64,000 nt of DNA from Hyphomicrobium album. Its GTDB lineage: Bacteria > Pseudomonadota > Alphaproteobacteria > Rhizobiales > Hyphomicrobiaceae. Position numbers and translations under genes: made by a program. The stretch lies in assembly GCF_009708035.1 (NCBI RefSeq), contig NZ_WMBQ01000002.1:682001-746000 (forward strand), read 5' to 3'. Every line of letters begins with the position of its first letter. Within the stretch, counting starts at the first letter, position 1. The notes beneath the pieces are model-generated. The model saw only the letters and a program-made list of their open reading frames with translations. It made no database searches and was not told the origin of the DNA. Below, piece by piece: positions 30,673 to 62,720 of this stretch.

Positions 30673-30686
30673 CTGATGCAGATCAA
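30673..30686. promoter_or_regulatory. FNR/FixK-type box before cytochrome b gene
   Basis: CTGATGCAGATCAA matches TTGAT-N4-ATCAA at nine of ten positions. It ends 49 bases before the cytochrome b start at 30736, a suitable place for an activator of the CRP/FNR family. Confidence 0.6.
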
Positions 30687-30735
30687 GGGTCGCCAGCCAC
30701 TCGTACGCAAGAATGACGTTACGGAGGATCTGGCT

Positions 30736-31464
30736 ATGTCTGAGTTCAAAGAATACGCCGCATGGGATGCCCCGACCCGTTGGTTCCATTGGCTCAATGT
30801 GTTGGCGGTCGTGGGTCTTATCGGCACGGGCCTCGTCGTTCTCTTCGATGACGCCCTTGGGCTGTCCGCATCTGGAAAGCTCACTCTCAAGAGCGTCCAT
30901 GCATCCTTCGGGTACGTCATGGTCTTCAATCTGTTCTGGCGCTTTGCCTGGGCCTTCCTGGGGAATCGATACGCGAGGTGGCGCGCCATTGTGCCTGGCG
31001 GGCCGGGCTATTTTGTCGCTTTACGCGCCTACACGGACTCGTTCCTAACCGGGGAGCCACAGCAGTATGTGGGTCACAACCCGCTTGCGCGCATTGCCGT
31101 TGCGCTGCTCTTCTTGCTATTGCTCGTCCAGGCAGTGACCGGCCTCGTTCTCGTAGGAACCGACCTCTATTGGCCCCCGTTCGGGCATTGGTTCGCGGCG
31201 TGGGTTGCCGCGCCGGGTGTCGACCCATCCTTGGTGGTGCCGGGAGCAGCCCACCTCATCGACAACACCTCCTATGACGCGATGCGCGCGTTCCGCAGTC
31301 CGTTTGTCGAAGTGCACGAGCTTGGCTTTTATGCGCTTGCCGCTCTGATCGTGCTCCACGTGATCGCGGTAGTGGCGACGGAGGTTCACGAGGGCGGCAG
31401 CATCACGTCGGCAATGTTCACCGGACGCAAGATTCTGTCGCGTCCTCCGCCCGACGCTCCTTAG
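30736..31464 (+). CDS. membrane-bound cytochrome b (b561/hydrogenase b-type)
   Basis: 242 residues with four main hydrophobic helices. WDAPTRWFHWLNVLAVVGLIGTG in helix 1, KSVHASFGYVMVFNLFWRFAWAFLG in helix 2 and LGFYALAALIVLHVIAVVATEVHEGG in helix 4 supply the heme-ligating histidines of the cytochrome b561/Ni-Fe-hydrogenase cytochrome b (PF01292) family. Such proteins pass electrons between quinones and periplasmic cytochromes c. It is first in a likely operon with the P-type ATPase (39 bases apart) and lies behind an FNR-type box. Confidence 0.85.
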   Translation: MSEFKEYAAWDAPTRWFHWLNVLAVVGLIGTGLVVLFDDALGLSASGKLTLKSVHASFGYVMVFNLFWRFAWAFLGNRYARWRAIVPGGPGYFVALRAYTDSFLTGEPQQYVGHNPLARIAVALLFLLLLVQAVTGLVLVGTDLYWPPFGHWFAAWVAAPGVDPSLVVPGAAHLIDNTSYDAMRAFRSPFVEVHELGFYALAALIVLHVIAVVATEVHEGGSITSAMFTGRKILSRPPPDAP

Positions 31465-31502
31465 GGCGCGTCTCTACTGTGTCGCCGGCTTCGAGGAGCG
31501 TC

Positions 31503-33791
31503 ATGATCAACGAACGCTTCGCCAGGCGCACACTCGCCGTTGCCGCACTGCTCGGCCTCGCATTTGGCGGCACGGCATTTCTTGCAGGCTATCCCGCGAC
31601 GGCCGGGTGGATGTGGACGGCGGCTACGATTCCCGTCGTCATAGCTCTAGCCTTTTCCATCGTTCGCGACTTCGCGGCCGGACGTATGGGCGTCGACGCC
31701 ATCGCCCTTCTGGCCATGGCAGCCGCCATTCTTCTCCAGCAGCCCCTGGCTGCCATCGTCGTCGCCATCATGTACACGGGCGGGACGGTGCTCGAGGACG
31801 ACGCGGTCAGCCGCGCCGAACGCAACTTGAAGACGCTCGTCGATCGGGCACCGCGATTGGCGCATCGTCGCGTAGACGAGACCATTATGGACGTCGACAT
31901 CGGCGACGTGAAGGTCGGCGATGCGATCCTCATTCGCGCTGGCGAGATCATCCCCGTCGACGGGCTGATTGCGTCTCCGCGGGCGGTCGTCGACGAAGCG
32001 GCGCTCACGGGCGAGCCGATCCCGATCGCCCGGCAAGCCGGCGAGAGCGCCCGCAGTGGGACACTCAACGCGGGCGATACTTTCGAGATCACGGCAACGG
32101 CGACGGCGGACGAGAGCACCTATGCGGGCATCGTGCGGCTTGTCACCGCGGCGCAGACCGCAAAGGCGCCCTTCATACGGCTTGCGGATCGATACGCGCT
32201 GTTGCTGCTGCCGGTGACGATCGTGATTGCCGGACTGGCGTGGGCGCTGTCGGGTGATCCAGTTCGCGGCCTCGCCGTTCTGGTGGTCGCCACACCATGC
32301 CCGCTCATACTTGCTGCCCCGGTCGCGTTCATCGCCGGCGTATCGCAGGCGGCACGTCGAGGCATCATCATCAAGGGCGGCGCGCCCCTCGATGCCTTGG
32401 CGCAAACGCATACCGTTCTATTCGACAAGACAGGCACCCTGACGGTAGGGGGAGCGCGCCTGATCGCCGTCGAAACTGCGCCCAACGAAGACGCCAGCGA
32501 GGTACTGCGCCTAGCGGGATCGCTGGAGCAGGCATCGCAGCATGTCGTGGCTGCCGCCATCGTGACGGCCGCCGCCGGCAAAGGTCTATCTCTGCAGATG
32601 CCCGAGCAGGTGCATGAGGTTATGGGCTCCGGCCTCGAGGGCGTAGTCGACGGGCGGATGGTCCGCGTCGGCTCACACCAGCTTAACTTCGGGCCACGCA
32701 AGCCGGACGAATGGGCTGGGCGTGCGCTGCGCCGCGCCTCCTGGCGATCGGCGCTCAGCGTGTTCGTATCGGTCGACGGCCGCGTCGTTGGCGCGTTGCT
32801 CCTTGCCGACGAGCTACGCAAAGAGACCCCCCGCGCGGTGCAATCGCTGCGCTCGGCCGGAATTTCCCGGATCGTGATGGTCACTGGCGATCACGCCGAT
32901 GCGGCAGAGACGATTGCTGCGGCGCTGAATATCGATGCGGTGCTATCCGATCGCGTCCCTTCCGACAAGGTCGATGCCGTCGTCATGGAGAGCCGGCTAC
33001 ACCCGACGCTGATGGTGGGCGATGGCATCAACGATGCTCCGGCCCTTGCAGCAGCCGACGTGGGCGTCGCTTTGGGCGCCCGCGGCGCCAGCGCCTCGTC
33101 GGAAGCGGCCGACGTGGTTATCGTCGTGGACAGACTCGATCGGGTGTCGGAGGCCGTAATCATCTCCCGGCGTGCGCGGCGCATCGCCATCCAAAGCATC
33201 GTCGCCGGCATGGGGCTTTCCGGTGTCGCCATGGCCTTCGCCGCCTTCGGCTGGCTGACGCCCGTGGCGGGTGCCCTGACGCAGGAGGCCATCGATGTCG
33301 CGGTGATCCTCAACGCGCTGCGGGCTCTCACACCGGGGTGGCACCGACGCCGGGAAGGACTGCCGAGCAAGATGGCACGCGCCTTGAGCGAGGAGCACCG
33401 GTTGCTCGAGCAGGAACTGGACAAGCTGCGATCCATCTCGGACGCGCTCGACGATGCAAGCGGCCAGCGCGCCGTCGACCTTATCCTCAGCGCACACGCA
33501 ATTGTCGAAGACAGTGTCGTGACGCACGAGCGTGAGGATGAAACGACACTCTACCCGCGCTTATCGAAGCTGCTCACCAACAGCCACGGTTTGTCCGCCA
33601 TGAGCCGGGCACATCGCGAGATCCTTCATCAGGCGCGCCTCTTGGCTAGGCTCGCGCATGGCCTGCGGGCAGAGGACGCCGACAAGTACCTCGTTCGTGA
33701 TGCCCAGCGGGTCATCGGATCCATCGAGGCGCTCGTGCGGATTCACAACGCGCAGGAGGAAGATATCTACGAGGAGACAGTTTCTGGATGA
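31503..33791 (+). CDS. P1B-type metal ATPase with C-terminal hemerythrin domain
   Basis: 762 residues. The actuator domain has TGEP, the membrane motif is TPCPL (Cys266) and the phosphorylation motif is DKTGTLT (Asp308). The hinge is MVGDGINDAPAL. There is no N-terminal metal-binding domain, and the second Cys of CPC is Leu. Residues from about 625 on form a hemerythrin/HHE domain: EEHRLLEQEL, HAIVEDSVVTHEREDETTLYPRL, SRAHREILHQ and HNAQEEDIYEE supply His and Glu ligands for a di-iron site. The fusion suggests metal transport controlled by oxygen, NO or iron. Metal unknown. Confidence 0.88.
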   Translation: MINERFARRTLAVAALLGLAFGGTAFLAGYPATAGWMWTAATIPVVIALAFSIVRDFAAGRMGVDAIALLAMAAAILLQQPLAAIVVAIMYTGGTVLEDDAVSRAERNLKTLVDRAPRLAHRRVDETIMDVDIGDVKVGDAILIRAGEIIPVDGLIASPRAVVDEAALTGEPIPIARQAGESARSGTLNAGDTFEITATATADESTYAGIVRLVTAAQTAKAPFIRLADRYALLLLPVTIVIAGLAWALSGDPVRGLAVLVVATPCPLILAAPVAFIAGVSQAARRGIIIKGGAPLDALAQTHTVLFDKTGTLTVGGARLIAVETAPNEDASEVLRLAGSLEQASQHVVAAAIVTAAAGKGLSLQMPEQVHEVMGSGLEGVVDGRMVRVGSHQLNFGPRKPDEWAGRALRRASWRSALSVFVSVDGRVVGALLLADELRKETPRAVQSLRSAGISRIVMVTGDHADAAETIAAALNIDAVLSDRVPSDKVDAVVMESRLHPTLMVGDGINDAPALAAADVGVALGARGASASSEAADVVIVVDRLDRVSEAVIISRRARRIAIQSIVAGMGLSGVAMAFAAFGWLTPVAGALTQEAIDVAVILNALRALTPGWHRRREGLPSKMARALSEEHRLLEQELDKLRSISDALDDASGQRAVDLILSAHAIVEDSVVTHEREDETTLYPRLSKLLTNSHGLSAMSRAHREILHQARLLARLAHGLRAEDADKYLVRDAQRVIGSIEALVRIHNAQEEDIYEETVSG

Positions 33792-33939: not shown

Positions 33940-33953
33940 TTGATCTAAATCAT
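33940..33953. promoter_or_regulatory. FNR/FixK-type box before cytochrome c gene
   Basis: TTGATCTAAATCAT matches TTGAT-N4-ATCAA with one mismatch. It ends 49 bases before the start codon at 34003. Confidence 0.7.
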
Positions 33954-34002: not shown

Positions 34003-34329
34003 ATGGCGTGCCTGCTCAGGCTTTTGACGGCGATGACGCTACTGGCTCCCGGCGTGCCCGCGGCGGCTGTTGAGCTAGGCAACGTAGCAGCGGGTCTCGA
34101 GTACGCGCAGAAGGTTTGCTCCGCCTGTCACGCCGTGGAGAAGGATACCGTGATGCGCCTCTCCCAGGTGCCGAGCTTCCAAGAGGTGGCCGACACCCCG
34201 GGCATGACGCCTCGGGCGCTGGTCGTATGGTTGAGGACCTCGCATCCGAATATGCCGGACCTCATCATCGCGCCGGACGACATGGACAATGTCGTCGCCT
34301 ACATCATGAGCCTGCGAACCAAGAAGTAG
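34003..34329 (+). CDS. small exported cytochrome c
   Basis: 108 residues. A signal peptide (MACLLRLLTAMTLLAPGVPAAA) is followed by heme motif CSACH (Cys39, Cys42, His43). The axial Met is probably that in SHPNMPDLI, followed by the closing helix DDMDNVVAYIMSLR. This is the size and plan of class I monoheme cytochromes such as the SorB or c-552 type electron carriers. Periplasmic. It stands alone behind an FNR-type box. Confidence 0.9.
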   Translation: MACLLRLLTAMTLLAPGVPAAAVELGNVAAGLEYAQKVCSACHAVEKDTVMRLSQVPSFQEVADTPGMTPRALVVWLRTSHPNMPDLIIAPDDMDNVVAYIMSLRTKK

Positions 34330-34386: not shown

Positions 34387-34824
34387 TCATCGGCAGATGA
34401 GTACTGGAACCGACGCACCGGTCAGCACGCGGGTAGCCTCGCTGCCTAGCAGGAGTTTGGATAGTCCGCGTCTTCCATGCGAGCCCATCACGATGAGATC
34501 GCATGGCGTCGCCTTCGCGTGCTCGATGATGCCTTCGGCGGCATAGCTATCGGGGATGTGCACTGTCTTGCATGTCAATCCGCAGCGGCGTGCGCGCTCT
34601 GCGGCAGCACTAAGAACACTTCCCGCATTTGCCGCAGCTAGCTCTTGGTACTCCTTGAGGGGCATCGCGAGGGCCCATTCTCCTGACACGGCCGTTGGCC
34701 ACGGCTCGGTCACGTGCGCGAGCGTCACTTGCGAGCCAAGCGCTTTCGCTAGTGCAAATCCCTGCTCCTCGGCGCGGACAGAGACGTCCGAGCCGTCGAC
34801 TGCAATCAGAATATGCTCGTACAT
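34387..34824 (-). CDS. universal stress protein (UspA family)
   Basis: 145 residues. The start MYEHILIAVDGSDVS and the ATP-binding loop VMGSHGRRGLSKLLLGSEATRVL (G-2x-G-9x-G-S/T) mark a nucleotide-binding single-domain Usp. The family acts in survival of starvation and oxygen limitation. Divergent from the cytochrome gene at 34923, with a shared FNR-type box whose near edge is 50 bases from this start. Confidence 0.92.
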   Translation of the reverse strand: MYEHILIAVDGSDVSVRAEEQGFALAKALGSQVTLAHVTEPWPTAVSGEWALAMPLKEYQELAAANAGSVLSAAAERARRCGLTCKTVHIPDSYAAEGIIEHAKATPCDLIVMGSHGRRGLSKLLLGSEATRVLTGASVPVLICR

Positions 34825-34874: not shown

Positions 34875-34888
34875 TTGATCCGGGTCAA
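34875..34888. promoter_or_regulatory. FNR/FixK-type box between divergent usp and cytochrome c genes
   Basis: TTGATCCGGGTCAA fits TTGAY-N4-RTCAA exactly and resembles the FixK box. It lies 50 bases from the Usp start (minus) and 34 from the cytochrome start (plus). Confidence 0.75.
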
Positions 34889-34922: not shown

Positions 34923-35255
34923 ATGAGGACTCTCTGCGAGATAGTCGCCGTCGCCGCGATCGTTGGATTCGGTGCGGCCTCGGCGCTGGCGGGCGAAGCA
35001 GGCCCCGCCACGAGCGGCAAGATTATCCTTGCGGCCAACTGCGCCCGCTGTCATGCGATCGAGGGAAGCGGCAAGAGCCCGCACCACGAGGCCCTGCCAT
35101 TCCGCGAAGTGGTCCTCCGCTATCCACCCGAGCAGCTTGCCGAGGCGCTGGCGGAGGGAATCATATCGGGACACCCGGACATGCCCGAGTTCACCTTCGA
35201 GCCGGCGGAGATTGAGGCCATAGTCGCCTATCTCACGACACTCAAGGCGGACTAG
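34923..35255 (+). CDS. small exported cytochrome c
   Basis: 110 residues. A signal peptide (CEIVAVAAIVGFGAASALA-G) precedes CARCH (Cys40, Cys43, His44). The heme pocket has HPDMPEFTF with the likely axial Met, and the closing helix is EIEAIVAYLTTLKAD. It shares the HPxMPxF/L...EIExIVAYL plan with the cytochrome at 34003, so the two are probably paralogs. A decayed YedE-type gene and a persulfide-dioxygenase-like gene follow on the same strand. Confidence 0.9.
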   Translation: MRTLCEIVAVAAIVGFGAASALAGEAGPATSGKIILAANCARCHAIEGSGKSPHHEALPFREVVLRYPPEQLAEALAEGIISGHPDMPEFTFEPAEIEAIVAYLTTLKAD

Positions 35256-36729: not shown

Positions 36730-36743
36730 TTGACTTCGGTCAA
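36730..36743. promoter_or_regulatory. FNR/DNR-type box before small membrane protein and acyl-CoA synthetase
   Basis: TTGACTTCGGTCAA is a perfect 5+5 palindrome of the TTGAC-N4-GTCAA type. It ends 60 bases before the ATG at 36804. Confidence 0.72.
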
Positions 36744-36803: not shown

Positions 36804-37031
36804 ATGAGACGCATTCGTGCCGGCTATCTAGTGCTTATAGCCATCGTCATCGTCATGAACGGCCTGGCGTTGCTGCAGCACTTAGGAATGCTTCCGGAAA
36901 TCTCCGGTTTCCTTGCGGCCACCCTGCTGGCGAACATGCTCGTGATTCCCGTCGTCATCTGGGGTGCGTTCGTCCTGGGCGAGGTCGTCGAGGGGCTCCC
37001 CGGAAGGAAAGTTCGCCGCGCGGCACGGTGA
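36804..37031 (+). CDS. two-helix small membrane protein
   Basis: 75 residues: MRRIRAGYLVLIAIVIVMNGLALLQ, a short loop and FLAATLLANMLVIPVVIWGAFVLGEVV, then a basic tail (GRKVRRAAR). The positive ends suggest that both termini are cytoplasmic. A GGGAGG site precedes the ATG. It is the first gene behind an FNR-type box and probably cotranscribed with the acyl-CoA synthetase. Function unknown. Confidence 0.65.
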   Translation: MRRIRAGYLVLIAIVIVMNGLALLQHLGMLPEISGFLAATLLANMLVIPVVIWGAFVLGEVVEGLPGRKVRRAAR

Positions 37032-37157
37032 GCGTGTTCGAGCCCTTTTTTGGCCGCACGCATCGATTGGGCCCGCTCCCTTGTCACATCGGCGATCCTT
37101 AGGTCGACGAAAGGTACTGTGAGGTACCGTCGGTCCTGCGAAGGCGGTTACTCGGCC

Positions 37158-39824
37158 GTGACGATTAGAAATCTGGAAAAGCTCCTCGCGCCACGATCGG
37201 TGGCCCTCGTCGGAGCCAGCGACCGGCTTGGCAGCGTTGGCGCCATCGTCGCGCGCAATCTCCTGCGCGGCGGCTTCGCGGGGCCGATCTATTTCGTGAA
37301 CCCGCGGCACCGGTCGATCGATGGCGCGCGCTGCTACGCAACTCTGTCAGATCTGCCGGAGGCGCCCGATCTCGTCGTGTTGGCAACGCCGCCGCAGACC
37401 GTGCCGGGCCTCATCGCGGAGGCCGGCGCGCGCGGCACACGGGCCGCCGTCATCATAACGGCTGGCTTCGACCGCCAGCTTCGGCAGGAGGTGCTCGATG
37501 CGGCGCGTCCCCATTGCCTGCGGATCCAGGGGCCGAACTGCGTCGGCTTGCTTGTCCCCCACATCGGGCTCGATGCGAGTTTCGCCCATCGTATGCCGAT
37601 CCCCGGCGATCTCGCCTTCATCTCGCAGTCCGGGGCGCTGGTGACCGCAATCATCGACTGGACGGCGCATCGCGGCATCGGTCTGTCGCATGTCATCTCG
37701 CTCGGCGACATGGCCGATGCGGACTTCGGCGACTTCCTCGACTACCTGGCCGGCGATCGGCGCAGCCGCGCGATCCTGATCTACATGGAGCAGATGACGG
37801 CGGCTCCGAAGTTCGTTTCGGCGGCAAGACGGACCGCGCGCGCCAAACCCGTGATCATCTTGAAGGCCGGTCGCAACGCCACCGCCGCCAAGGCGGCGAT
37901 GTCCCATACTGGAGCTCTTGCGGGCTCCGATAGCGCTTACAACGCCGCCTTTCGCCGTGCCGGCGTGCTGCGCGTGCGCGAACTGAGGCAGCTGTTCGAT
38001 GCCGCCGAGATTCTTTCGGCGCCCCCGGTGCTTGCCGGAGATCGACTGACGATCCTCACCAATGGTGGCGGCGCGGGTGTGCTGGCGACCGACGCGCTTG
38101 CCGACCTGAATGGAACGCTGACCGAGCTCGATGCATCCACGCTAGCTAAGCTGAAACAAGCGCTGCCGGCGACGTGGTCCGGCACCAATCCTGTCGACAT
38201 CATCGGAGATGCGGGCGCGCGCCGCTACGAGGATGCGATGCGCGCGCTGATGATGGACAAGTCCACCGACGCCATACTCGTCATGAACTGTCCGACCGCT
38301 CTGGCATCGAGCGAGGAGGCCGCTGCGGTTGTGGTCCGCGAGGCCGCCGCCGACAAGGATCGCCGCCCGCGCAAGGTGGTCCTGACAAGCTGGCTCGGCG
38401 ATGGCGCCGCCGCCGCCAGTCGGCGCCTGTTCGTCGACGCTCGTATTCCGACGTTCGAGACGCCGGAAGCCGCGGTCGAGGGCTTCATGCAGCTGGTGCG
38501 CTACCGGCGTGCCCAAGACGAGCTGATGCAGGTACCGCCGTCGGCCGGCGGCGCGATGCGCTTCGATGCTTCGGCGGCGCGAGAAATCCTGCGCAGTGCG
38601 CTCGCTGCAGGCCGCAAGACACTTTCGGAAGTCGAGGCGAAGGCCCTTCTGGCGACCTACGGCATCCCCGTCGTGCCTACCTATACCGCCACCGATCCGA
38701 CGGCGGTGGAGGAGAAAGCCCGCGAGATCCTGCGCGATCACAAGGCCTGCGTGGTCAAGGTGCTGTCCGACCAGATCACGCATAAGTCCGACGTGGGCGG
38801 TGTGCGCTTGGCACTCACTTCGCCGGCCGACGCGCGCGTCGCGGCCGAGGAGATACTCGCCAATGTGAGCAAGCTGCGCCCGGAAGCAGTGGTCCGCGGC
38901 TTTACCGTTCAGGCGATGATCGAACTCCACAATTCCTTTGAGCTGATCATCGGAGCTAGCGACGATGCAACCGTCGGACCCCTCATGATGTTCGGCTCGG
39001 GCGGGACCTCCGTCGAGGTGACGGCGGACACCGCCCACGCGCTTCCTCCGCTTGACCTCAAGCTGGCGCAGCAGATGATGGAGGAGACGCGCATCTACAA
39101 GCTTCTGCGCGGCTATCGCGATCGGCCGTCGGCGGCGATCGAGGAGATTGCGCGGTCGCTCGTCCGGCTCAGCTACCTCGTCGCCGAGCACGAAGAGATT
39201 CGTGAGATCGACATCAATCCGCTGCTTGCCAATGAGCTCGGTGTGCTGGCGCTCGATGCCCGCGTCAGCGTCGCCGATCCGAAGCTCGTGCCGCGCACGC
39301 CGCTAGCCGTCCGGCCTTATCCCGTGGAATGGGAGCGCGGTGACAGCGTCGAGGGTATCGGTAGCTTCCTGCTGCGGCCGATCCGCCCCGACGATGAGCC
39401 AATGTATGAGGCGTTCTTCTCGCGCATCACGTCCGCCGACCTGCAAATGCGCTTCTTCACTGCCGCGCCTGATCGATCCTTCCGTTTCTTCGCGCGCATG
39501 ACGCAGATCGACTACGCACGCGAGATGGCCTTCGTGGCAGCGACTCCAACCGAGCTCTTGGGAGTTGCGCGTCTCGTGGCGGACCCTGACTACAGCAATG
39601 CAGAGTTCGCGGTCATTGTCCGCTCCGATCTCAAAGGCAAGGGGCTCGGCTATAAGCTGATGCAGCACTTGATTGGGTACGCTCGGGCAGAAGGGCTCGA
39701 TGTCCTGCAAGGCGACGTGTTGGCGGCGAACACCAGCATGTTGCAACTCTGCCGCGAGCTGGGATTCAGCGCGGACAGCGCGGCGCCAGCCGATGTCGTG
39801 CGGGTAAAGCTGCCCTTAGGGTAA
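37158..39824 (+). CDS. ADP-forming acetate/acyl-CoA synthetase fused to GNAT acetyltransferase
   Basis: 888 residues from the GTG at 37158 (TIRNLEKLLAPRSVALVGAS). The order is CoA-binding domain (about 1-130), succinyl-CoA-synthetase-like domains with SHTGALAGSD (about 140-460), ATP-grasp (about 480-700; VVKVLSDQITHKSDVGGVRL), and a C-terminal GNAT domain (about 720-880; LRPIRPDDEPMYEAFF ... VRSDLKGKGLGYKLMQHLI). The synthetase half can make ATP from acyl-CoA, useful without oxygen. The same architecture occurs in the Pat/PatZ protein-lysine acetyltransferases, where the synthetase half is inactive, so both roles remain open. Confidence 0.88.
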   Translation: MTIRNLEKLLAPRSVALVGASDRLGSVGAIVARNLLRGGFAGPIYFVNPRHRSIDGARCYATLSDLPEAPDLVVLATPPQTVPGLIAEAGARGTRAAVIITAGFDRQLRQEVLDAARPHCLRIQGPNCVGLLVPHIGLDASFAHRMPIPGDLAFISQSGALVTAIIDWTAHRGIGLSHVISLGDMADADFGDFLDYLAGDRRSRAILIYMEQMTAAPKFVSAARRTARAKPVIILKAGRNATAAKAAMSHTGALAGSDSAYNAAFRRAGVLRVRELRQLFDAAEILSAPPVLAGDRLTILTNGGGAGVLATDALADLNGTLTELDASTLAKLKQALPATWSGTNPVDIIGDAGARRYEDAMRALMMDKSTDAILVMNCPTALASSEEAAAVVVREAAADKDRRPRKVVLTSWLGDGAAAASRRLFVDARIPTFETPEAAVEGFMQLVRYRRAQDELMQVPPSAGGAMRFDASAAREILRSALAAGRKTLSEVEAKALLATYGIPVVPTYTATDPTAVEEKAREILRDHKACVVKVLSDQITHKSDVGGVRLALTSPADARVAAEEILANVSKLRPEAVVRGFTVQAMIELHNSFELIIGASDDATVGPLMMFGSGGTSVEVTADTAHALPPLDLKLAQQMMEETRIYKLLRGYRDRPSAAIEEIARSLVRLSYLVAEHEEIREIDINPLLANELGVLALDARVSVADPKLVPRTPLAVRPYPVEWERGDSVEGIGSFLLRPIRPDDEPMYEAFFSRITSADLQMRFFTAAPDRSFRFFARMTQIDYAREMAFVAATPTELLGVARLVADPDYSNAEFAVIVRSDLKGKGLGYKLMQHLIGYARAEGLDVLQGDVLAANTSMLQLCRELGFSADSAAPADVVRVKLPLG

Positions 39825-39846: not shown

Positions 39847-39860
39847 TTGACCTGCATCAA
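39847..39860. promoter_or_regulatory. FNR/FixK-type box before phaC
   Basis: TTGACCTGCATCAA fits TTGAY-N4-RTCAA. It ends 51 bases before the phaC start. Confidence 0.7.
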
Positions 39861-45968: not shown

Positions 45969-45976
45969 GTTTCACC

Positions 45977-46759: not shown

Positions 46760-46762
46760 TGG

Positions 46763-52817: not shown

Positions 52818-52831
52818 TTGACCCACGTCAA
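52818..52831. promoter_or_regulatory. FNR/DNR-type box between divergent cytochrome c and PCMT-fusion genes
   Basis: TTGACCCACGTCAA is a perfect TTGAC-N4-GTCAA palindrome. It ends 61 bases before the GTG at 52893 and begins 81 bases before the GTG at 52736. Confidence 0.73.
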
Positions 52832-52892: not shown

Positions 52893-54893
52893 GTGACTGA
52901 TCTTGCGACAGAACGCGCTTACATGGTCGAGCACCACATTGCGGCCCGCGGCGTGCGCTCGCCCCTCGTGCTCGAGGCGATGGCGACGGTGCCGCGCGAA
53001 GAATTTCTGCCCTCTCACCTGCGCGAATATGCCTACGAGGACACGCCACTCCCCATCGGCGAAGCGCAGACCATATCGCAGCCATACATCGTCGCCTTCA
53101 TGACCGAAGCCCTCGGCCTGTCCGGAGGTGAGAAGGTTCTTGAGATCGGTGCGGGGTCGGGCTATGCCGCCGCCGTTCTGTCGCGCATCGCCGGCGATGT
53201 CTACACGGTCGAGCGTATCGGAGAGCTTGCCGCGAAGGCTTCCGAGCGGCTGTCCGATCTCGGCTATGACAATGTGCACTTGCTGCATGCCGACGGCACG
53301 CGCGGGTGGCTCGAGCACGCGCCTTACGACGCGATCATCGTCGCTGCCGGCGGCCCGGAGGTCCCCAGGTCGCTGAAGCAGCAACTCGCCATCGGCGGTC
53401 GCCTTGTCATCCCCGTCGGTACCGACCCGCGCGTTCAGGAGCTCGTGCGTTTGACGCGCGGCAGCGAGGATGAATTCAAGTCAGAGGATATTGCGGACGT
53501 CCGCTTCGTCCCCCTGCTCGGTGAAGAGGGCTGGGCGGAGACGAAACCCCAGAAACGCGCGGCTAAGGCGGCACGGGACCGCGTTGGGGAACGCGATCTG
53601 ATCGATGCGGTGCGGGAGCACGCGGAGCCGTTCGGGTCGATTGAGCTCGCCGACCTCGAACCGGTGCTCAAGCGGATCGGCGACGCGCGCTTGGTTCTAA
53701 TCGGCGAGGCGACGCACGGCACCGCGGAATTCTATCGGATGCGCGAGCAGATCACGCGAGCGCTGATCACGGAGAAGGGCTTCAAATTCGTCGCCATCGA
53801 AGGTGATTGGCCGGACGCGGCGCGCATCGACAACTATGTGCGACACTTCGAGTACCAGCCCGCGGGGTGGACCGCATTCGCCCGCTTTCCTACGTGGATG
53901 TGGCGTAACCACGAGGTTCGCGAATTCGTGGAATGGCTGCGCGGCGAGAACGCAGATCGCGAACCGGGCAAGCGCGCGGCCTTCCACGGGCTTGATCTCT
54001 ACAGCCTGCACAATTCGATCCGCGAAGTGCTCGACTACCTGGACGACGTCGATCCGCATGCGGCGCAGGTCGCGCGCGAACGCTATGGGTGCCTGACCCC
54101 ATGGCAGGCAGATCCCGCCACCTATGGACGAGCAGCCCTCACCGGGCGCTACCGCTCCTGCGAAAAGGAGGTCGCCTCCATGTTGGCCGGCATCCTCACG
54201 AAGCGGCGGGAGTATGCGCTGCGGGACGGCGAACGCTACTTCGGTGCAGTGCAGAACGCGCGACTCGTTACCAATGCCGAGCGTTACTATCGCATCATGT
54301 ACTACGGCTCGCGAGCGTCCTGGAACCTGCGCGACAGCCACATGTTCGAGACCCTGAGGGCGCTGCTCGCCTTCTATGGGCTCGATAGCAAAGCCGTCGT
54401 GTGGGCGCACAACTCCCACGTCGGCGATGCTTCAGCCACCGAGATGTCCATCAGGGGCGAGTACAATGTCGGTCAGCTGTGTCGCAGCGAATTCAAACAA
54501 CAAGTCTATCTGATTGGTTTTGGCACCGACCGGGGGACGGTTGCTGCGGCCTCAGACTGGGATGGTCCAATGCAAACCATGGAGGTGAGACCCTCGATCG
54601 AGAAGAGCTATGAGCGACGGTTTCGCGCTGCCGCTCAAGACATGGGCGAGCCGAAGTACTTCCTGCCGTTGCGAGGCAAGGCGTCGATGCAAGAGGCACT
54701 GCAGCATCCGCGGCTGGAACGCGCCATCGGCGTCATTTACCGGCCCGAGACGGAACTCGCGAGCCACTATTTCCAGGCCGTCCTTCCACGCCAGTTCGAC
54801 GAGTACATTTGGTTCGACGAGACATGCGCCGTAAGTCCTCTTCCAACGGTGGATCTCGCGGGCATGCCAGACACCTATCCGTTTGGTCTCTAG
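52893..54893 (+). CDS. L-isoaspartate O-methyltransferase fused to erythromycin-esterase-like domain
   Basis: 666 residues, GTG start. Residues 1 to about 215 are a protein-L-isoaspartate methyltransferase: VPREEFLP, PLPIGEAQTISQPYIVAFMTEAL, VLEIGAGSGYAAAVLSRIA, YDAIIVAAGGPEVP. From about 230, GDARLVLIGEATHGTAEFYRMREQITRALI, FKFVAIEGDWPDAARIDNYVR, HGLDLYSL and VVWAHNSHVGDAS form the erythromycin esterase (EreA/EreB-like) family, with its Glu-His pairs. The first half repairs aged Asp/Asn; the role of the second is unknown and need not concern antibiotics. Leads an operon with a cytochrome and an RbbA-type system. Confidence 0.9.
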   Translation: MTDLATERAYMVEHHIAARGVRSPLVLEAMATVPREEFLPSHLREYAYEDTPLPIGEAQTISQPYIVAFMTEALGLSGGEKVLEIGAGSGYAAAVLSRIAGDVYTVERIGELAAKASERLSDLGYDNVHLLHADGTRGWLEHAPYDAIIVAAGGPEVPRSLKQQLAIGGRLVIPVGTDPRVQELVRLTRGSEDEFKSEDIADVRFVPLLGEEGWAETKPQKRAAKAARDRVGERDLIDAVREHAEPFGSIELADLEPVLKRIGDARLVLIGEATHGTAEFYRMREQITRALITEKGFKFVAIEGDWPDAARIDNYVRHFEYQPAGWTAFARFPTWMWRNHEVREFVEWLRGENADREPGKRAAFHGLDLYSLHNSIREVLDYLDDVDPHAAQVARERYGCLTPWQADPATYGRAALTGRYRSCEKEVASMLAGILTKRREYALRDGERYFGAVQNARLVTNAERYYRIMYYGSRASWNLRDSHMFETLRALLAFYGLDSKAVVWAHNSHVGDASATEMSIRGEYNVGQLCRSEFKQQVYLIGFGTDRGTVAAASDWDGPMQTMEVRPSIEKSYERRFRAAAQDMGEPKYFLPLRGKASMQEALQHPRLERAIGVIYRPETELASHYFQAVLPRQFDEYIWFDETCAVSPLPTVDLAGMPDTYPFGL

Positions 54894-54909: not shown

Positions 54910-55341
54910 ATGAATCTCGAAAGGCTCACAGTGCGCTCGGCAAACTGCTCGCTACTTCTTCTCCTGGTCTGTGCGAGTACGCAGCTCGCCGCGGCCGAGG
55001 GAAGGACGCGGGCTGCGGTATTCAACGACGGCAAGCAGGAGTTCGAGGAGAACTGCATCGCCTGTCATGGTCGGGACGGCACTGGAAAGGGCGAGCTTGG
55101 CGTTAAGCTCGTGAAGCCGCCAAAGGACCTCACCGCCATTGCCAAAGCCAATGGCGGCGAATTCCCCTTCTGGCGCGTCTTCGACATCGTCGCCGGCGAT
55201 ACCGACGTGCCGGGGCATGAAACATTTCACATGCCACTTTACTCGCAACGCATGCGCAGTCAGGAGGCCGCCGGTCTTCCGCCGGCGCATGTGCGGGTGC
55301 TTGAGCTCACGCACTATCTCGAGAGCATCCAGCATGAGTGA
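54910..55341 (+). CDS. small exported cytochrome c
   Basis: 143 residues. An AGGAG site sets the ATG at 54910. The signal peptide CSLLLLLVCASTQLAAA is followed by CIACH (Cys49, Cys52, His53) in EFEENCIACHGRDGTGKGELGVKL. KPPKDLTAIAKANGGEFPFWRVFDIVAG parallels the cytochrome at 48023, so they are paralogs. The Met in HMPLY is a likely axial ligand. 16 bases after the PCMT fusion, hence the same operon. Confidence 0.9.
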   Translation: MNLERLTVRSANCSLLLLLVCASTQLAAAEGRTRAAVFNDGKQEFEENCIACHGRDGTGKGELGVKLVKPPKDLTAIAKANGGEFPFWRVFDIVAGDTDVPGHETFHMPLYSQRMRSQEAAGLPPAHVRVLELTHYLESIQHE

Positions 55342-55469
55342 TCGCGCAACTGCGGCTCAATCCGCGTGAGGGCACTGCATGTGTGCTTGAGGGACGTGGA
55401 CTCGTGCGCTAGTTAAGGAGTGCAACGCGTGTTGGACCGTTCGTTTTCGGCCCGCAGGGCGACGCGGCA

Positions 55470-56534
55470 ATGCTGAGCTCGCTTCTGCGCCTACCGCTGC
55501 AATGGAAAGTGCCGATGCCGGGCAGGCAGCCGAACGACCCATCCGGATCGCGCCCAAACGTCAAGCCGTTGCTCGCGCTTGGCCTCGCCGCGCTCCTGCT
55601 CGTGGGCGGCGGCTACGTCGCCTGGCGCACGCTATCCACACCCAGCCTGCCGGCCGGTATCGCCAAGGCCAACGGGCGTATCGAGGCCGAGCGCGTCGAC
55701 GTGGCGACCAAGCTCGCCGGGCGCCTGAAGCAGGTGCTCGTCAAGGAGGGTGACAGCGTGACCATCGGGCAGACGCTCGCCCTGATGGATACCGCGGAAC
55801 TCGAGGCCCAGCTCAACGACGCCAAGGCAACGGCCCGACAGGCCGAGCGTCAGCTCGACCAGGCCATCGCACTCCTGGCGCAGCGCAAGAGCGAGCTCAC
55901 ACTTTCTGAGCAGGAGCTCGATCGCGCCGAAAAGTTGGCCGCCAAGGGATACACGTCCAAGCAGGTAGTCGAGCAGCGTACGTCCGTGAAGCTTACGGCC
56001 GTAGCCGCGGTCAACAGCGCTCAAGCCCAGATCGACGTGGCAAAGGCGAGCATCGAATCGGCGACGGCGCGGGTCGCCCGCATCCAGACCTATCTCGACG
56101 ATAGCGTACTCACCGCGCCGCGGTCCGGGCGCGTGCAATATCGGCTCGCGCTGCCGGGCGAAGTTCTGGCCGCCGGCGGCAAGGTCCTCACCCTGCTCGA
56201 CGTGACCGACGTCTACATGACCGTCTTCCTGCCGACGAGCGAGGCCGGCCGCTTGCCGATCGGCGCCGAGGCGCGCATCATTTTCGATGCGGCGCCCCAG
56301 TATGTCGTGCCGGCCTCGGTGTCGTTCGTCGCCACCGAAGCCCAGTTCACGCCCAAGTACGTGGAGACGCAAAGCGAGCGAGAGAAGCTGATGTTCCGCG
56401 TGAAGGTGCAGCTTCCGCCCGACGTGCTGGAAAAGTACGTTGCCTGGGTGAAGACCGGCGTGCCGGGCATCGCCTTCATACGGCTTTCGCCGAAGGTGCA
56501 ATGGCCTGAGAATCTCGCCGTTGCACTGCCGTGA
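55470..56534 (+). CDS. HlyD-family membrane-fusion protein (YhiI-like)
   Basis: 354 residues (339 from the ATG at 55515). One N-terminal anchor (LLALGLAALLLVGGGYVAW), a lipoyl-like half (NGRIEAERVDVATKLAGRLKQVLVKEGDSVTIGQTLALMD), a coiled-coil hairpin (AELEAQLNDAKATARQAERQLDQAIALLAQRKSELTL) and the closing lipoyl/beta-barrel part (TAPRSGRVQYRLALPGEVLAAGGKVLTLLD). Inner-membrane adaptor for the ABC system that follows; its stop overlaps the next start. Confidence 0.9.
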   Translation: MLSSLLRLPLQWKVPMPGRQPNDPSGSRPNVKPLLALGLAALLLVGGGYVAWRTLSTPSLPAGIAKANGRIEAERVDVATKLAGRLKQVLVKEGDSVTIGQTLALMDTAELEAQLNDAKATARQAERQLDQAIALLAQRKSELTLSEQELDRAEKLAAKGYTSKQVVEQRTSVKLTAVAAVNSAQAQIDVAKASIESATARVARIQTYLDDSVLTAPRSGRVQYRLALPGEVLAAGGKVLTLLDVTDVYMTVFLPTSEAGRLPIGAEARIIFDAAPQYVVPASVSFVATEAQFTPKYVETQSEREKLMFRVKVQLPPDVLEKYVAWVKTGVPGIAFIRLSPKVQWPENLAVALP

Positions 56535-59296
56535 AAGCTTTTGGCGCCCCGCTTCCTGTTGCAGAACTCCGCTCGGTGACCCATCGCTACGGACGATCGG
56601 TTGCGCTCGACAACGTCTCCATCGAGATACCCGCAGGGCGCATGGTGGGTCTTATCGGGCCGGACGGCGTCGGCAAATCCACCGTTCAGGCACTGATTGC
56701 CGGCGTGCGCCAGATTCAGTCGGGGCGGGTGATCGTGCTCGGGGGCGACATGAGCAGCACGCGCCACCGCAACGACGTCTGCGCCCGCATCGCCTACATG
56801 CCGCAGGGTCTTGGTCGCAATCTCTATCCGACTTTGTCCGTCTACGAAAACGTCGACTTCTTCGGGCGGCTATATGCACAGGAGGAGGAGGAGCGGCGCG
56901 CGCGTATCCAAGAGCTGCTGCGCTCCACCGAACTCGAGGCATTCGCCGATCGGGCGGCCGGCAAGCTGTCTGGGGGCATGAAACAAAAGCTTGCGCTGTG
57001 CTGCGCGCTGATCCACGACCCGGATCTTCTGGTGCTCGACGAGCCGACCACCGGCGTCGACCCGCTGTCGCGCAGGCGGTTCTGGGAGCTGATCGAGCGC
57101 ATCCGCGAGCGCCGCGACGGCATGAGCGTCATCACCGCCACCGCCTATATGGAGGAGGCGGAGCAGTTCCAGTCGCTGATTGCCATGGACGACGGGCGCG
57201 TCGTTGCCACCGGTACGGCTGCCGATCTCAAGAACATGACCGGCCGCGACACTCTCGAGGCGGCCTTCATCGAGCTCCTGCCCGAGGAAAAGCGCGCGGG
57301 GCACACGCAACTCGTCTTCGTTCCCCGCACGCGCAGCGGCGGCGCGCCGGCCATTGAGGCCAACAATCTAACCAAGCGCTTTGGCAGCTTCACGGCCGTG
57401 GATCGCGTCAACATCCGCATCGACCAGGGGGAGATCTTCGGGTTCCTCGGCTCCAACGGATGCGGAAAATCGACGACCATGAAGCTGCTGACGGGGCTGT
57501 TGCAGCCGAGCGCAGGTTCCGCTCGCCTCTTTGGGCGCCCGGTCGACGCCCGCGACCTGGAGACGCGCAAGCGCGTCGGCTACATGTCGCAGTCGTTCTC
57601 GCTCTACACGGAGCTGACGGTGCGGCAGAACCTCGAGCTGCATGCACGCCTCTTCGAGGTTCCGTCCGACGCGGTCGGTGCGCGTGTGGAGGAGATGCTG
57701 GCGCGCTTCGGGCTCGCCGCGGTCGCCGGCGCCATGCCCCTGTTGCTGTCGCTCGGCATGCGCCAGCGGCTGCAGCTCGCCGTGGCCGTCATCCACAGCC
57801 CGGACATGCTCATCCTCGACGAGCCGACGTCGGGCGTCGATCCTGTCGCCCGGGACAACTTCTGGGAGCTGCTCATCGAGTTGTCGCGCCGGGACGGCGT
57901 CACCATCTTCATTTCCACGCACTTCGTGAACGAGGCCGAACGCTGCGACCGCGTCTCGCTCATGCACGCGGGCCGCATTCTCGCGATTGGTGAGCCGAGC
58001 GAGTTGCGGAATGCGCGCGGGGCAGCGACGCTCTCCGATGCTTTCATCGACTATCTCGAGGTCGCCGACGGGAAGGAGGACGCGGCGGAGGAGGGCGCGA
58101 TCGAGGCTGTCGCGGCCGGGCAATTCGCGTCGCCAGTGGCTGGGATCATAAACAGCCAACGGCGCCCTTGGTTCAGCCCCGCCCGCATATGGGCATTCGC
58201 GCGACGCGAAACTCTGGAGCTGGTTCGTGACCCCATACGCATCACGTTTGCCCTGCTAGGACCGGTCGTTCTTCTGCTCGCGATGGCGTACGGCATCTCG
58301 TTCGATCTCGAGAACGTGCGCTACTCCGTGCTCGACCGCGATCAATCCCAGGAAAGCGCCACACTGCAGGAGAGTTTCTCCGCGTCGCGCTACTTTCAGC
58401 AGCGGGCACCCCTGCGCAGCGAGGGCGAAATCGATGCGCGGCTCAGATCGGGCGACATCAAGGTAGCGATCGCCATACCGCCCGAATTCGGTCGCGATCT
58501 GTTGCGCGAGCGCGCGCCGGAAGTCGGCGTTTGGCTCGATGGCTCCGATACCTTCAGGGCCGAAACGGCACGCGGCTATGTGCAGGGGGTGATCAACACC
58601 TACCTGCAAGACCTGGCGCGCCGCGAGACGGGCTCAGTTCCCAATCTCAGCCCGGCCGATATCGAGACGCGCTTCCGCTACAACCAGGCCTTCCTCAGCA
58701 TCTACGCAATATCTCCGGGTGTCTTGATGATGCTCATCATCATGTTCTGCACCATGCTGACGGCGCTGGGGATCGTACGCGAGAAGGAGCTCGGCTCGAT
58801 CACCAACCTCTATGCAGCACCCGCCAGCAAGCTCGAGTTTTTGCTCGGTAAGCAGTTGCCGTATGTCGGCATTGGCCTCGTTAGCTTCGTCGTGTTGGTG
58901 CTTGTCATCGTCTTTGGGTTCCGCGTGCCGATGACCGGCAGCTTCGCAGCATTGGCTCTGGGAGCGGTTCTGTTCGCCGGCGCAGCGACCGCCTTCGGGC
59001 TCGTCATATCCACATTCGTGCGATCGCAAATCGCCGCCATCTTCGGCTCGGCTATCATCGTATCGATCCCCACGGTGAACTTCTCCGGCATGATGTACCC
59101 CGTCTCGACGCTCGAAGGCGGCGCGCGCGTGATCGGAACGCTATTCCCTTCCCTCTATTTCCAGCGCATCAGCACCGGCGTCTTCAACAAGGGACTCGGT
59201 CTCGCTGAGCTCTACGCAAACCATTTGATACTCGCGCTGTTCTGCGTCGTATTCCTAGCGGTCGCAGCGCTGCTCTTGCGCAAGCAGGAGGCGTGA
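56531..59296 (+). CDS. RbbA-type ABC transporter, two ATPase domains fused to permease
   Basis: 921 residues, GTG start overlapping the previous stop by four bases. ATPase 1: GPDGVGKSTV, KLSGGMKQKL, LLVLDEPTTGVD. ATPase 2: GSNGCGKSTT, MLILDEPTSGVD, with an altered signature LSLGMRQRL as in RbbA proteins. The C-terminal 370 residues are an ABC-2 permease with about six helices. The order and length match E. coli RbbA of the yhiI-rbbA-yhhJ operon, described as a ribosome-associated ATPase. Exported substrate unknown. Confidence 0.9.
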   Translation: MKAFGAPLPVAELRSVTHRYGRSVALDNVSIEIPAGRMVGLIGPDGVGKSTVQALIAGVRQIQSGRVIVLGGDMSSTRHRNDVCARIAYMPQGLGRNLYPTLSVYENVDFFGRLYAQEEEERRARIQELLRSTELEAFADRAAGKLSGGMKQKLALCCALIHDPDLLVLDEPTTGVDPLSRRRFWELIERIRERRDGMSVITATAYMEEAEQFQSLIAMDDGRVVATGTAADLKNMTGRDTLEAAFIELLPEEKRAGHTQLVFVPRTRSGGAPAIEANNLTKRFGSFTAVDRVNIRIDQGEIFGFLGSNGCGKSTTMKLLTGLLQPSAGSARLFGRPVDARDLETRKRVGYMSQSFSLYTELTVRQNLELHARLFEVPSDAVGARVEEMLARFGLAAVAGAMPLLLSLGMRQRLQLAVAVIHSPDMLILDEPTSGVDPVARDNFWELLIELSRRDGVTIFISTHFVNEAERCDRVSLMHAGRILAIGEPSELRNARGAATLSDAFIDYLEVADGKEDAAEEGAIEAVAAGQFASPVAGIINSQRRPWFSPARIWAFARRETLELVRDPIRITFALLGPVVLLLAMAYGISFDLENVRYSVLDRDQSQESATLQESFSASRYFQQRAPLRSEGEIDARLRSGDIKVAIAIPPEFGRDLLRERAPEVGVWLDGSDTFRAETARGYVQGVINTYLQDLARRETGSVPNLSPADIETRFRYNQAFLSIYAISPGVLMMLIIMFCTMLTALGIVREKELGSITNLYAAPASKLEFLLGKQLPYVGIGLVSFVVLVLVIVFGFRVPMTGSFAALALGAVLFAGAATAFGLVISTFVRSQIAAIFGSAIIVSIPTVNFSGMMYPVSTLEGGARVIGTLFPSLYFQRISTGVFNKGLGLAELYANHLILALFCVVFLAVAALLLRKQEA

Positions 59297-59299
59297 GGC

Positions 59300-60430
59300 A
59301 TGCGCTCACTCGCTCACATCTACCGCCTGGGAGTGAAGGAGCTCTACAGCCTGCGGCACGACCCCGTGCTTGTGTTTCTCATTCTCTACACCTTCACCTT
59401 CGCGATCTACACGGTCGCGACCGGAGTGAAGACGGAGGTGCGCAATGCCTCCATCGCCTTCGTCGACGAGGACGGAACCGAGCTATCGCGACGTATGCGG
59501 GACGCGTTCCTGTGGCCTTACTTCAAGCCCGCCGCGCTGCTGCCCTCCACCGCCGATATCGACCGCGCGATGGACGCGGGCAAATATACCTTCGTCGTCG
59601 TGATACCCAGCCGCTTTCAGGCCGACCTCGTCGCCGGACGGCATCCGACCCTGCAACTCGACGTCGATGCCACGGCTATGACTTTGGCCGGCAACGGCAC
59701 GACTTACATCACCACTATTCTGCAGAACGAAATTTCCGGTTTCGCGGCCCGCAGCGAAGGCGGGGCGGCGCTGCCGGTGAGCATTTCGGTGCGCTCCAAG
59801 TTCAATCCAAATCTGGAATCGAGCTGGTTCATGGCCGTCATGCAGATCGTCGGCAACATCACCATGCTGTCCCTCATCCTTTCGGGTGCGGCCGTGATCC
59901 GCGAGCGCGAGCATGGCACCATCGAGCATCTGCTCGTCATGCCGGTCACGCCGGCGGAGATCATGTTGGCCAAGATCTGGGCCAACGGCAGCGTCATCGT
60001 CGCGGCGGCGCTCTTATCGTTGGTCGTCGTCGTGCAGGGACTGCTCGCCGTCACCATCGCAGGCTCGATCATGCTGTTCTTGCTGGGCACGGCGCTGTTC
60101 CTATTCGCCATGAGCTCGCTCGGCATCGCGTTGGCCACGCTGGCGCGCTCCATGCCTCAGTTTGGGCTGCTGGCGATTCCATTTTTCGTGGTGATGAACA
60201 TGCTTTCCGGGGGTGTTACGCCGCAGGAAGGCATGCCGGCATTCCTGCGCATGCTAATGCAGGCATCACCGTCGACGCATTTCACCAGCTTCTCGCAGGC
60301 TGTGCTCTACCGCGGCGCCGGTGTCGACGTCGTCTGGCCACAGCTCGCCGCCATGACGTTGATCGGCACGGTACTGTTCGTGGTGGCCGTCCGGCGCTTT
60401 CGCAACACGATGGCCGTGGGCCAGAGCTGA
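59300..60430 (+). CDS. ABC-2 type permease (YhhJ-like)
   Basis: 376 residues. An N-terminal helix (PVLVFLILYTFTFAIYTVA), a large periplasmic loop (about 50-170), then five C-terminal helices with the ABC-2 segment ALPVSISVRSKFNPNLESSWFMAVMQIVGNITMLSLILSGAAVIREREHGTIEHLLVMPVTPAEIMLAKIWAN. Starts 3 bases after the RbbA-like gene and completes the yhiI-rbbA-yhhJ set. Confidence 0.9.
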   Translation: MRSLAHIYRLGVKELYSLRHDPVLVFLILYTFTFAIYTVATGVKTEVRNASIAFVDEDGTELSRRMRDAFLWPYFKPAALLPSTADIDRAMDAGKYTFVVVIPSRFQADLVAGRHPTLQLDVDATAMTLAGNGTTYITTILQNEISGFAARSEGGAALPVSISVRSKFNPNLESSWFMAVMQIVGNITMLSLILSGAAVIREREHGTIEHLLVMPVTPAEIMLAKIWANGSVIVAAALLSLVVVVQGLLAVTIAGSIMLFLLGTALFLFAMSSLGIALATLARSMPQFGLLAIPFFVVMNMLSGGVTPQEGMPAFLRMLMQASPSTHFTSFSQAVLYRGAGVDVVWPQLAAMTLIGTVLFVVAVRRFRNTMAVGQS

Positions 60431-62377: not shown

Positions 62378-62419
62378 AGAGAGAGGCCGGCGACGTTGTT
62401 GCGCCGGCTCCCCGACTCG

Positions 62420-62650
62420 TCAGCATCCGTGGCGACGTAGGCAACGGGCAAAGCGCCAGGTGCCAAGCCCCCACCGCCATGCGCACTTGTCGCTCCATGC
62501 ATTGCAGCGGTTAAAGCCCGCGTGCTGCACAAGATTGGCCTGCAAGATTGGCAATTTAGCCGCCTGCAGCGCTTGGGCTTCGCCGATTGGTCCAAAGAAC
62601 GGCATCGACACTGCGAGTAAAGCGGCGGTAACGACTGAATTGCGGGGCAT
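62420..62650 (-). CDS. tiny exported Cys/Trp-rich protein
   Basis: 76 residues. An AAGGAG site 11 bases before the ATG and a signal peptide (MPRNSVVTAALLAVSMPFFGPIGEAQA) support a real gene. The mature part is about 48 residues and ends RCNAWSDKCAWRWGLGTWRFARCLRRHGC: four cysteines, three tryptophans and many arginines. It could be a periplasmic disulfide-bonded peptide or a metal binder. First gene behind the FNR-type box at 62707. No family recognised. Confidence 0.62.
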   Translation of the reverse strand: MPRNSVVTAALLAVSMPFFGPIGEAQALQAAKLPILQANLVQHAGFNRCNAWSDKCAWRWGLGTWRFARCLRRHGC

Positions 62651-62706
62651 ATCTCTTTCTCCTTGCTAGAGACACGCCTACATTGCCGTCTTTGAATATG
62701 CCCGCC

Positions 62707-62720
62707 TTGATCTGGATCAC
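62707..62720. promoter_or_regulatory. FNR/FixK-type box between divergent small protein and chitosanase genes
   Basis: TTGATCTGGATCAC, nine of ten positions of TTGAT-N4-ATCAA. It lies almost midway: 55 bases before the chitosanase start (62776) and 56 bases before the start at 62650. Confidence 0.7.

Follow-up and report, generated by a model that had tools for sequence, protein, structure and literature searches.

In Hyphomicrobium album, genes for cytochromes, polyhydroxyalkanoate (PHA) synthesis, universal stress proteins (Usp), ion pumps, lipid transport, a chitosanase and protein repair lie together on one stretch of DNA, which raises the question of what might hold such unrelated-looking genes together. 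The stretch analysed here (the window) comprises 64,000 nucleotides of contig NZ_WMBQ01000002.1 (C2; positions 682001-746000), and the genome amounts to 3.91 Mb on three contigs. An initial annotation had noticed ten boxes of the FNR/FixK/DNR type, perfect or one-mismatch versions of TTGAY-N4-RTCAA, between positions 30673 and 62720 of the window, and proposed that they tie these genes into one low-oxygen regulon. All ten were found where they had been placed; those at 34875, 36730, 39847, 47958 and 52818 were perfect, and those at 30673, 33940, 50438, 50528 and 62707 carried one mismatch. Taken together, the results described below suggest that this island is very probably one block of a FixK-type low-oxygen regulon.

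Density of the boxes in the window

The genome contained 14 perfect sites and 242 sites with at most one mismatch, and the same pattern read backwards gave 84. Five of the perfect sites were located within an 18-kb part of the window, and four adjoined hemN, the gene of a FixK-like protein and ccoNOQP. When 14 points were placed on the genome at random, five fell inside 18 kb in one of 200,000 runs. In the window, 17 sites with at most one mismatch were observed against 2.99 in shuffled sequences, a number reached by none of 100 shuffles, and against 3.96 expected from the genome density (Poisson P 1.0e-6); for perfect sites, 5 were observed and 0.23 expected from the genome density (Poisson P 4.4e-6). 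The excess was also evident against the background of the same genome, where ten other 20-kb stretches (200 kb), chosen at round coordinates, held no perfect site and 16 with one mismatch, of which 4 were intergenic.

A box matrix was trained only on other bacteria, namely on the loci of relatives of the PHA synthase PhaC with their flanks; the window was not in the training set. These loci, the best 80 of 382, amounted to 1.47 Mb and are not phylogenetically independent. They contained 109 perfect boxes. Rearranging the half-sites in seven patterns left 0 to 3 perfect matches, and a pattern with shifted spacing, which overlaps the motif, had 9; 106 of the 109 boxes were intergenic, compared with 26% intergenic DNA. 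With exactly one mismatch the contrast was weaker (167 for the box versus 7 to 107 for seven permuted patterns), and the overlapping shifted-spacing pattern gave 221. When the matrix was applied to the window, the ten sites scored 13.6 to 20.9. Scores of at least 12 were reached at 12 window positions and at 7 in the 200-kb background, and scores of at least 14 at 9 and 3, respectively; all of these window positions lay past 30 kb. The two positions of at least 12 outside the ten, 36405 (12.4) and 45247 (12.2), had no -10 element toward a gene start, and the further one-mismatch sites at 36405, 52605, 58332 and 63172 scored at most 12.4. No site as good had been noticed in positions 1-29000; indeed, only 8507, 17202 and 24735 were found there, all with one mismatch and scores of at most 10.6.

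Spacing of the boxes to predicted promoters

When 105 stretches running from a box to a gene were aligned, a -10-like element appeared 36 bases from the box start, and no element as strong was found elsewhere downstream of the box's own flanks. The exact motif TAnnnT occurred at offsets 35, 36 and 37 in 8, 9 and 4 of 106 stretches, against a mean of 0.5 elsewhere. In these 105 or 106 rows, a divergent box was entered once per side. If the -10 hexamer occupies -12 to -7, the fixed spacing places the box centre at -41.5, the position of class II activators in work on FNR and CRP. The predicted arrangement of box and -10 element is class II activator geometry, and the boxes of the window share it in their predicted spacing.

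The -10 matrix took the best of three offsets; the null was given the same choice, and the alignment peak appears without it. For the 13 box-to-gene directions taken as promoters in the window, the mean -10 score was 4.1, compared with -0.45 at intergenic positions, and none of 20,000 draws of 13 positions exceeded 1.93. The predicted leaders measured 0, 15, 15, 16, 17, 26, 26, 27, 29, 47, 57 and 142 nt, and 22 nt for a 76-aa open reading frame (ORF) described below. Transcription from the 13 promoters is predicted to begin at 30721, 33988, 34923, 34840, 36778, 39895, 48006, 47923, 50403, 50576, 52866, 52783 and 62672. Composite promoters numbered 8 in 30-64 kb, where gene starts were checked by hand, versus 0 in the 200 kb of the same genome, where gene calls were automatic; where Pfam gave no match, genes were called by a simple coding score trained on the window.

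Every box had been described as standing in a promoter position, and this applied to ten of ten after two gene starts around the 62707 box were re-read. On one side, the chitosanase more likely begins at 62776, with a twin-arginine signal, than at 62698; the other side is occupied by the 76-aa ORF (62420-62650, minus strand), whose N-terminus is signal-peptide-like. The poorest fit was the 50438 box with its 142-nt leader to the gene it faces. Boxes between divergent genes were also present, their count of four being re-read as six boxes in five intergenic stretches.

Boxes in relatives and the candidate activator

A box stood upstream of PhaC in 46 of 77 loci; of the remaining plus-strand genes there, 39 of 475 were boxed. 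Among 96 box-adjacent genes of the PhaC loci, the Pfam families Hsp20 (7), HlyD (6), BON (4), CBS (4) and Usp (3) were represented, none of which figured in the list of the 25 commonest families, down to 2 members, in a control sample of 96 genes; for this tally one 49-aa box-adjacent ORF was dropped from 97, and the control sample kept five PhaC genes. On the sequence evidence, boxes next to PhaC seem to be common across the Alphaproteobacteria. A gene-by-gene survey, limited to the 30 best loci of each query and with strand taken into account, was carried out for the MlaE permease, a fusion of protein-L-isoaspartate methyltransferase with an erythromycin-esterase-like domain (PCMT-Ere), an ADP-forming acyl-CoA synthetase fused to a GNAT acetyltransferase (ACS-GNAT) and the FixK-like protein; with the window's own locus, the boxed loci numbered 11/30, 7/21, 5/30 and 13/30, respectively. 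With the window left out, 10 of 29 relatives of MlaE were boxed, nine of them with a -10 score of at least 2.0, and 6 of 20 relatives of PCMT-Ere, five of them at that score. In-gene control stretches for MlaE, PCMT-Ere and ACS-GNAT gave no boxed locus. The boxes stand before only part of the relatives' genes; the link is thus real, yet varies from lineage to lineage.

Boxing of the single gene families in a minority of relatives would also suit a chance neighbourhood, in which independent operons of different regulons came to lie side by side and the boxes are partly accidental or relics. This is extremely unlikely in view of the density, the -10 spacing and the short leaders at nearly all ten sites, and of the lack of composite promoters in the 200-kb background. 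Another possibility is that the sites are operators for a repressor and not activator sites. Upstream of the FixK-like gene, only two of the 13 boxed loci (its own included) had a -10 score of at least 2.0 in its direction, as would be seen if the gene were repressed or if the boxes served a divergent gene; the in-gene control for this query (5/30 boxed) is compromised, as it extends beyond the end of this short gene. Judging by spacing only, the target boxes stand at a fixed distance from the -10 element, at the position a -35 element would have, and repression is highly unlikely.

An FNR/FixK/DNR-type protein had been expected to read the boxes. The CRP/FNR family was retained, and the type was narrowed to FixK, without an N-terminal cysteine cluster. 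A gene at C1:59991-60668, beside hemN and ccoNOQP on contig C1, encodes a protein with cNMP-like and HTH domains and an ExxSR helix, whose nearest solved relative is FixK2 (4i2o, E 2.8e-32). Its recognition helix LTIETVSRTLTKL (ETVSR) matches the FixK2 helix LTLETVSRALSQL. It has no N-terminal Fe-S cysteine cluster, cysteines being present only at 43, 104, 129, 199 and 215. Among the 15 HTH_Crp_2 matches in the genome, this FixK-like protein alone had the ExxSR helix, and one other had DTLSR; the Fe-S FNR type (N-terminal cysteine cluster and ExxSR) was found in none of the 15, C2:781707 having CxxC without the helix. A stand-alone Crp-type HTH protein encoded inside the island (49368-49736) was rejected as the box reader, since it lacks the ExxSR helix and a search for a sensor domain found none.

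Outside the window, nine perfect boxes were located. On C1 they adjoin hemN, the FixK-like gene, a gene for PqqC and ccoNOQP; others precede the genes of an aldehyde dehydrogenase and of a HemA-like protein (so named by reading; its Pfam match is aminotransferase class I and II), neighbour two further Crp-type genes or lie at C1:1094733. On one side, six of the nine, including those of hemN, ccoN and the HemA-like gene, had a -10 element scoring 3.5 or more. The domains of hemN and ccoN were identified by profile (HemN, COX1), and ccoOQP were named by reading. Relatives of the FixK-like protein occurred in 64 of 103 family genomes, this one counted. In 18 of the 52 family genomes having both genes, this one included, a FixK relative (41 to 76% identical) lay at most 20 kb from the ACS-GNAT gene; distances were measured within single contigs, from low end to low end of the matches, in assemblies many of which are fragmented. 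The activator is most likely the FixK-like protein encoded beside ccoNOQP.

A second Crp/FNR protein (C1:808973, L048:5457-6252), the one with the DTLSR helix, might instead be the main box reader and respond to nitric oxide or another cue, in which case the regulon would not primarily be one of oxygen. Immediately upstream of its gene stands a perfect box (22.4) accompanied by a good -10 (4.4), and the protein matches FixK2, weakly (E 1.7e-10). However, its helix has D instead of the FixK/FNR E at the first contact residue, a residue with a role in the recognition helix of FixK and FNR. Moreover, hemN and ccoNOQP, classic oxygen targets with the same boxes, are found at the locus of the FixK-like gene and not at that of C1:808973, and the family-wide linkage figure concerns the FixK-like protein only. 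We regard this second protein as an unlikely main reader.

The proposed FixK-type control resembles that of known systems. In Bradyrhizobium diazoefficiens, Usp bll6069, phaC2 bll6073, CBS blr6074 and PCMT bll4651 are microoxia-induced and direct FixK2 targets (PMC6515984). MCE bll6063, ABC bll6064, MlaE bll6065 and GNAT bll6068 are microoxia-induced (PMC6515984, Table 2), as are phasin, HlyD and MBL proteins, which lack a direct FixK2 mark (PMC6515984). These counterparts were identified from product names and locus tags and not through sequence comparison. Several of them stand in one locus-tag run, bll6060-blr6074, similarly to the island (PMC6515984), whereas the block here is richer in c-type cytochromes and includes b561 paired with a P1B ATPase; among 30 scanned proteins of the block, neither a CBS nor an Hsp20 protein was found. 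Passages of a comparative genomics study of Alphaproteobacteria describe genome-wide FnrN/FixK sites, with cco and hemN as targets and phbC as possibly controlled in some Rhizobiales (PMC4999443); in its main text, supplements aside, universal stress or UspA and Hyphomicrobi- names do not occur. For Herbaspirillum seropedicae, parts of a report on Fnr1 and Fnr3 place phaC1, phasin, two Usp genes, c-type cytochromes and fixNOP under Fnr, and the Fnr proteins described there carry Fe-S cysteines, unlike the N-terminus of the FixK-like protein here (PMC5934665). Given the Bradyrhizobium, Rhizobiales phbC and Herbaspirillum precedents, the control proposed for the island is well supported and of an already known kind.

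The following observations weigh against one FixK-controlled block. Three directions that might likewise be counted as pointing to a gene were left out of the promoter set (62707 to chitosanase, -1.0; 50438 to phasin, 0.7; 50528 to 49893-50261, -1.9), and with them the mean -10 score drops to 3.2 over 16 directions. Among relatives, 19 of 29 MlaE and 14 of 20 PCMT-Ere genes were unboxed, and Halomonas PhaC loci had no box upstream of PhaC. ACS-GNAT was boxed in 4 of 29 relatives with the window left out, two of them with a -10 score of at least 2.0, and was accordingly dropped as a generally boxed gene. The Ca-type ATPase and the HlyD/ABC exporter have no box of their own and only lie downstream of boxed genes. 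Three of the nine outside perfect boxes (C1 61591, 134246 and 1094733) lack a good -10. The FixK-like gene and the island are on different contigs here, their linkage was seen in 0 genomes of the genus, and the second Crp/FNR protein, whose gene has its own perfect box, could share the sites. FixJ, sought by its family profile, gave at best 214.6 bits against a cut-off of 255; a FixLJ pair, with the neighbouring kinase as a putative haem sensor, is at most a candidate for the oxygen sensor. In Bradyrhizobium, bll6063, bll6064, bll6065 and bll6068 are induced without a direct-FixK2-target mark (PMC6515984).

The idea of one low-oxygen regulon is nevertheless supported for its core, for which the clustering, the class II spacing, the boxes of relatives' PhaC, MlaE and PCMT genes, the hemN and ccoNOQP boxes and the microoxic induction of counterpart genes in Bradyrhizobium (PMC6515984) speak. 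Its list of members was reduced: the chitosanase has a poor -10, and membership of the Ca-type ATPase, the HlyD/ABC exporter, the MBL and Nudix proteins, cytochrome c4, usp2 and usp3 is presumed only. A good box promoter was found for none of the chitosanase, MBL, Nudix, c4, usp2 and usp3 genes.

Predicted units of the island and their proposed use

From the first box, CTGATGCAGATCAA (30673..30686, plus; box score 16.5, -10 score 3.7), transcription is predicted to start at 30721, giving a 15-nt leader to cytochrome b561 (30736..31464, plus; PF01292, E 2.2e-27). A P1B-type metal ATPase with a C-terminal hemerythrin domain (31503..33791, plus; PF00122, PF01814) follows 38 bp after b561 and shares its box; it also carries the TPCPL motif, which we take to be a mark of the P1B-5 subtype, beside the hemerythrin domain. 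According to parts of one report, some P1B-5 ATPases, including one from Sinorhizobium, carry such a domain at the C-terminus (PMC9388753). Box TTGATCTAAATCAT (33940..33953, plus; 18.7, -10 4.2) would serve the small c-type cytochrome c1 with one CxxCH (34003..34329, plus) through a 15-nt leader. The perfect box TTGATCCGGGTCAA (34875..34888; 19.7, -10 5.4 plus and 3.7 minus) stands between the divergent usp1 (34387..34824, minus; PF00582, E 1.1e-32) and small c-type cytochrome c2 (34923..35255, plus). The predicted +1 of c2 coincides with its ATG (34875-34923), and its mRNA may be leaderless.

The perfect box TTGACTTCGGTCAA (36730..36743, plus; 15.5, -10 5.0) precedes, with a 26-nt leader, a 75-aa ORF that is hydrophobic by reading and without a Pfam match (36804..37031, plus) and ACS-GNAT (37119..39824, plus; PF13549, PF13607, PF00583; TIGR02717 under its cut-off). 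Around ACS-GNAT, 40 kb was covered in five of the other seven genomes of the genus, and none had the island there: three combined ACS-GNAT with the Ca-type ATPase and had boxes close by, two had ACS-GNAT without an ATPase match, and in all five ACS-GNAT lay upstream of genes read as rpoBC. The perfect box TTGACCTGCATCAA (39847..39860, plus; 19.1, -10 3.2) is the predicted promoter box of phaC (leader 29 nt), which encodes the PHA (polyhydroxybutyrate, PHB) synthase (39924..41795, plus; PF07167, E 2.5e-57); its three closest named relatives are from Hyphomicrobium strains, at 68 to 75% identity. A P2-type, Ca-like cation ATPase without its own box (42134..44905, plus) begins 338 bp after phaC.

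The perfect box TTGATCGTCATCAA (47958..47971; 17.1, -10 4.2 plus and 6.2 minus) lies between a likely operon of MlaE-STAS permease, ABC ATPase and MlaD/auxiliary protein (44808..47866, minus; PF02405, PF13466, PF00005, PF02470, PF03886) and c-type cytochrome c3 (48023..48445, plus), with leaders of 57 and 17 nt. The stand-alone HTH protein (49368..49736, minus; PF13545, 26.6 bits against a cut-off of 27) has an uncertain start, and a 144-aa open frame at C2:786072 resembles it; both lack the ExxSR helix. Box TTGATCTCGATCAC (50438..50451, minus; 13.6, -10 2.7) faces a 122-aa protein without a Pfam match (49893..50261, minus), and box TTGATCTCGATCAT (50528..50541, plus; 18.1, -10 5.8) would drive, with a 26-nt leader, a phasin or PHA granule protein (50602..50937, plus; PF09361, E 2.8e-7). 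The perfect box TTGACCCACGTCAA (52818..52831; 20.9, -10 1.9 plus and 4.4 minus) separates c-type cytochrome c5 (52155..52736, minus) from PCMT-Ere (52893..54893, plus; PF01135, PF05139), with leaders of 47 and 27 nt; cytochrome c6, an HlyD adaptor, an ABC ATPase/permease and an ABC permease (54910..60430, plus) are perhaps cotranscribed with PCMT-Ere.

At box TTGATCTGGATCAC (62707..62720, minus; 15.5), the -10 score was 3.1 toward the 76-aa ORF, which was too short for the first ORF list and begins 22 nt from the predicted +1, and -1.0 toward the GH46 chitosanase (62776..63654, plus; twin-arginine-like signal). A leader of 21 nt from 62776 fits the chitosanase, but the -10 is poor and the opposite ORF fits better; the box was rejected as the chitosanase promoter, and regulon membership of that gene is weak. 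Just before the island, at 29282-30670, a DegP-like protease is seemingly split in two overlapping frames and is followed by an apparent histidine kinase end.

From these units we infer the following course. When oxygen falls, the FixK-like activator would bind the TTGAY-N4-RTCAA boxes, centred at -41.5, and exert class II activation of sigma-70-type promoters. Thereby b561 and the P1B-type metal pump, usp1, the ADP-forming acyl-CoA synthetase, PhaC, phasin, the MlaE lipid transporter and PCMT-Ere would be switched on, and four of the six small c-type cytochromes directly. The predicted units are b561 with the hemerythrin-bearing ATPase; c1; usp1 divergent from c2; the 75-aa ORF with ACS-GNAT; PhaC, perhaps with the Ca-type ATPase; MlaE/ABC/MlaD divergent from c3; the 122-aa protein divergent from phasin; and c5 divergent from PCMT-Ere with c6, perhaps extending to the HlyD/ABC exporter. 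The purpose may be a cbb3-centred respiration during which carbon and reducing power are banked as PHA and the envelope and proteins are maintained.

The hypoxia set of Mycobacterium tuberculosis DosR contains Hsp20, a CBS protein, a P-type ATPase and a storage-lipid synthase, the stored compound being triacylglycerol; its activator and box are unrelated to the FixK type, and the likeness is one of gene content only. According to parts of two reports, the set includes six Usp proteins and the erythromycin-esterase fusion Rv2030c, in which the partner domain is a phosphoribosyltransferase instead of the PCMT found here (PMC4410610, PMC2914252). We tentatively raise the possibility, in which our confidence is rather low, that PhaC-centred blocks with FixK/FNR boxes are a recurrent alphaproteobacterial survival module that converged on the DosR content (Usp, Hsp20, CBS, esterase fusions, P-type ATPases and a storage-polymer synthase) and was repeatedly gathered and scattered, the boxes travelling with their operons.

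The analysis argues, from sequence alone, that storage of PHA, the small cytochromes, one stress protein, transport of lipids and repair of proteins stand under one low-oxygen activator, and it would extend such control beyond the rhizobial models of the papers cited to Hyphomicrobium. Furthermore, it predicts where transcription starts at thirteen promoters and suggests under which condition genes that are usually called hypothetical are likely to be used.

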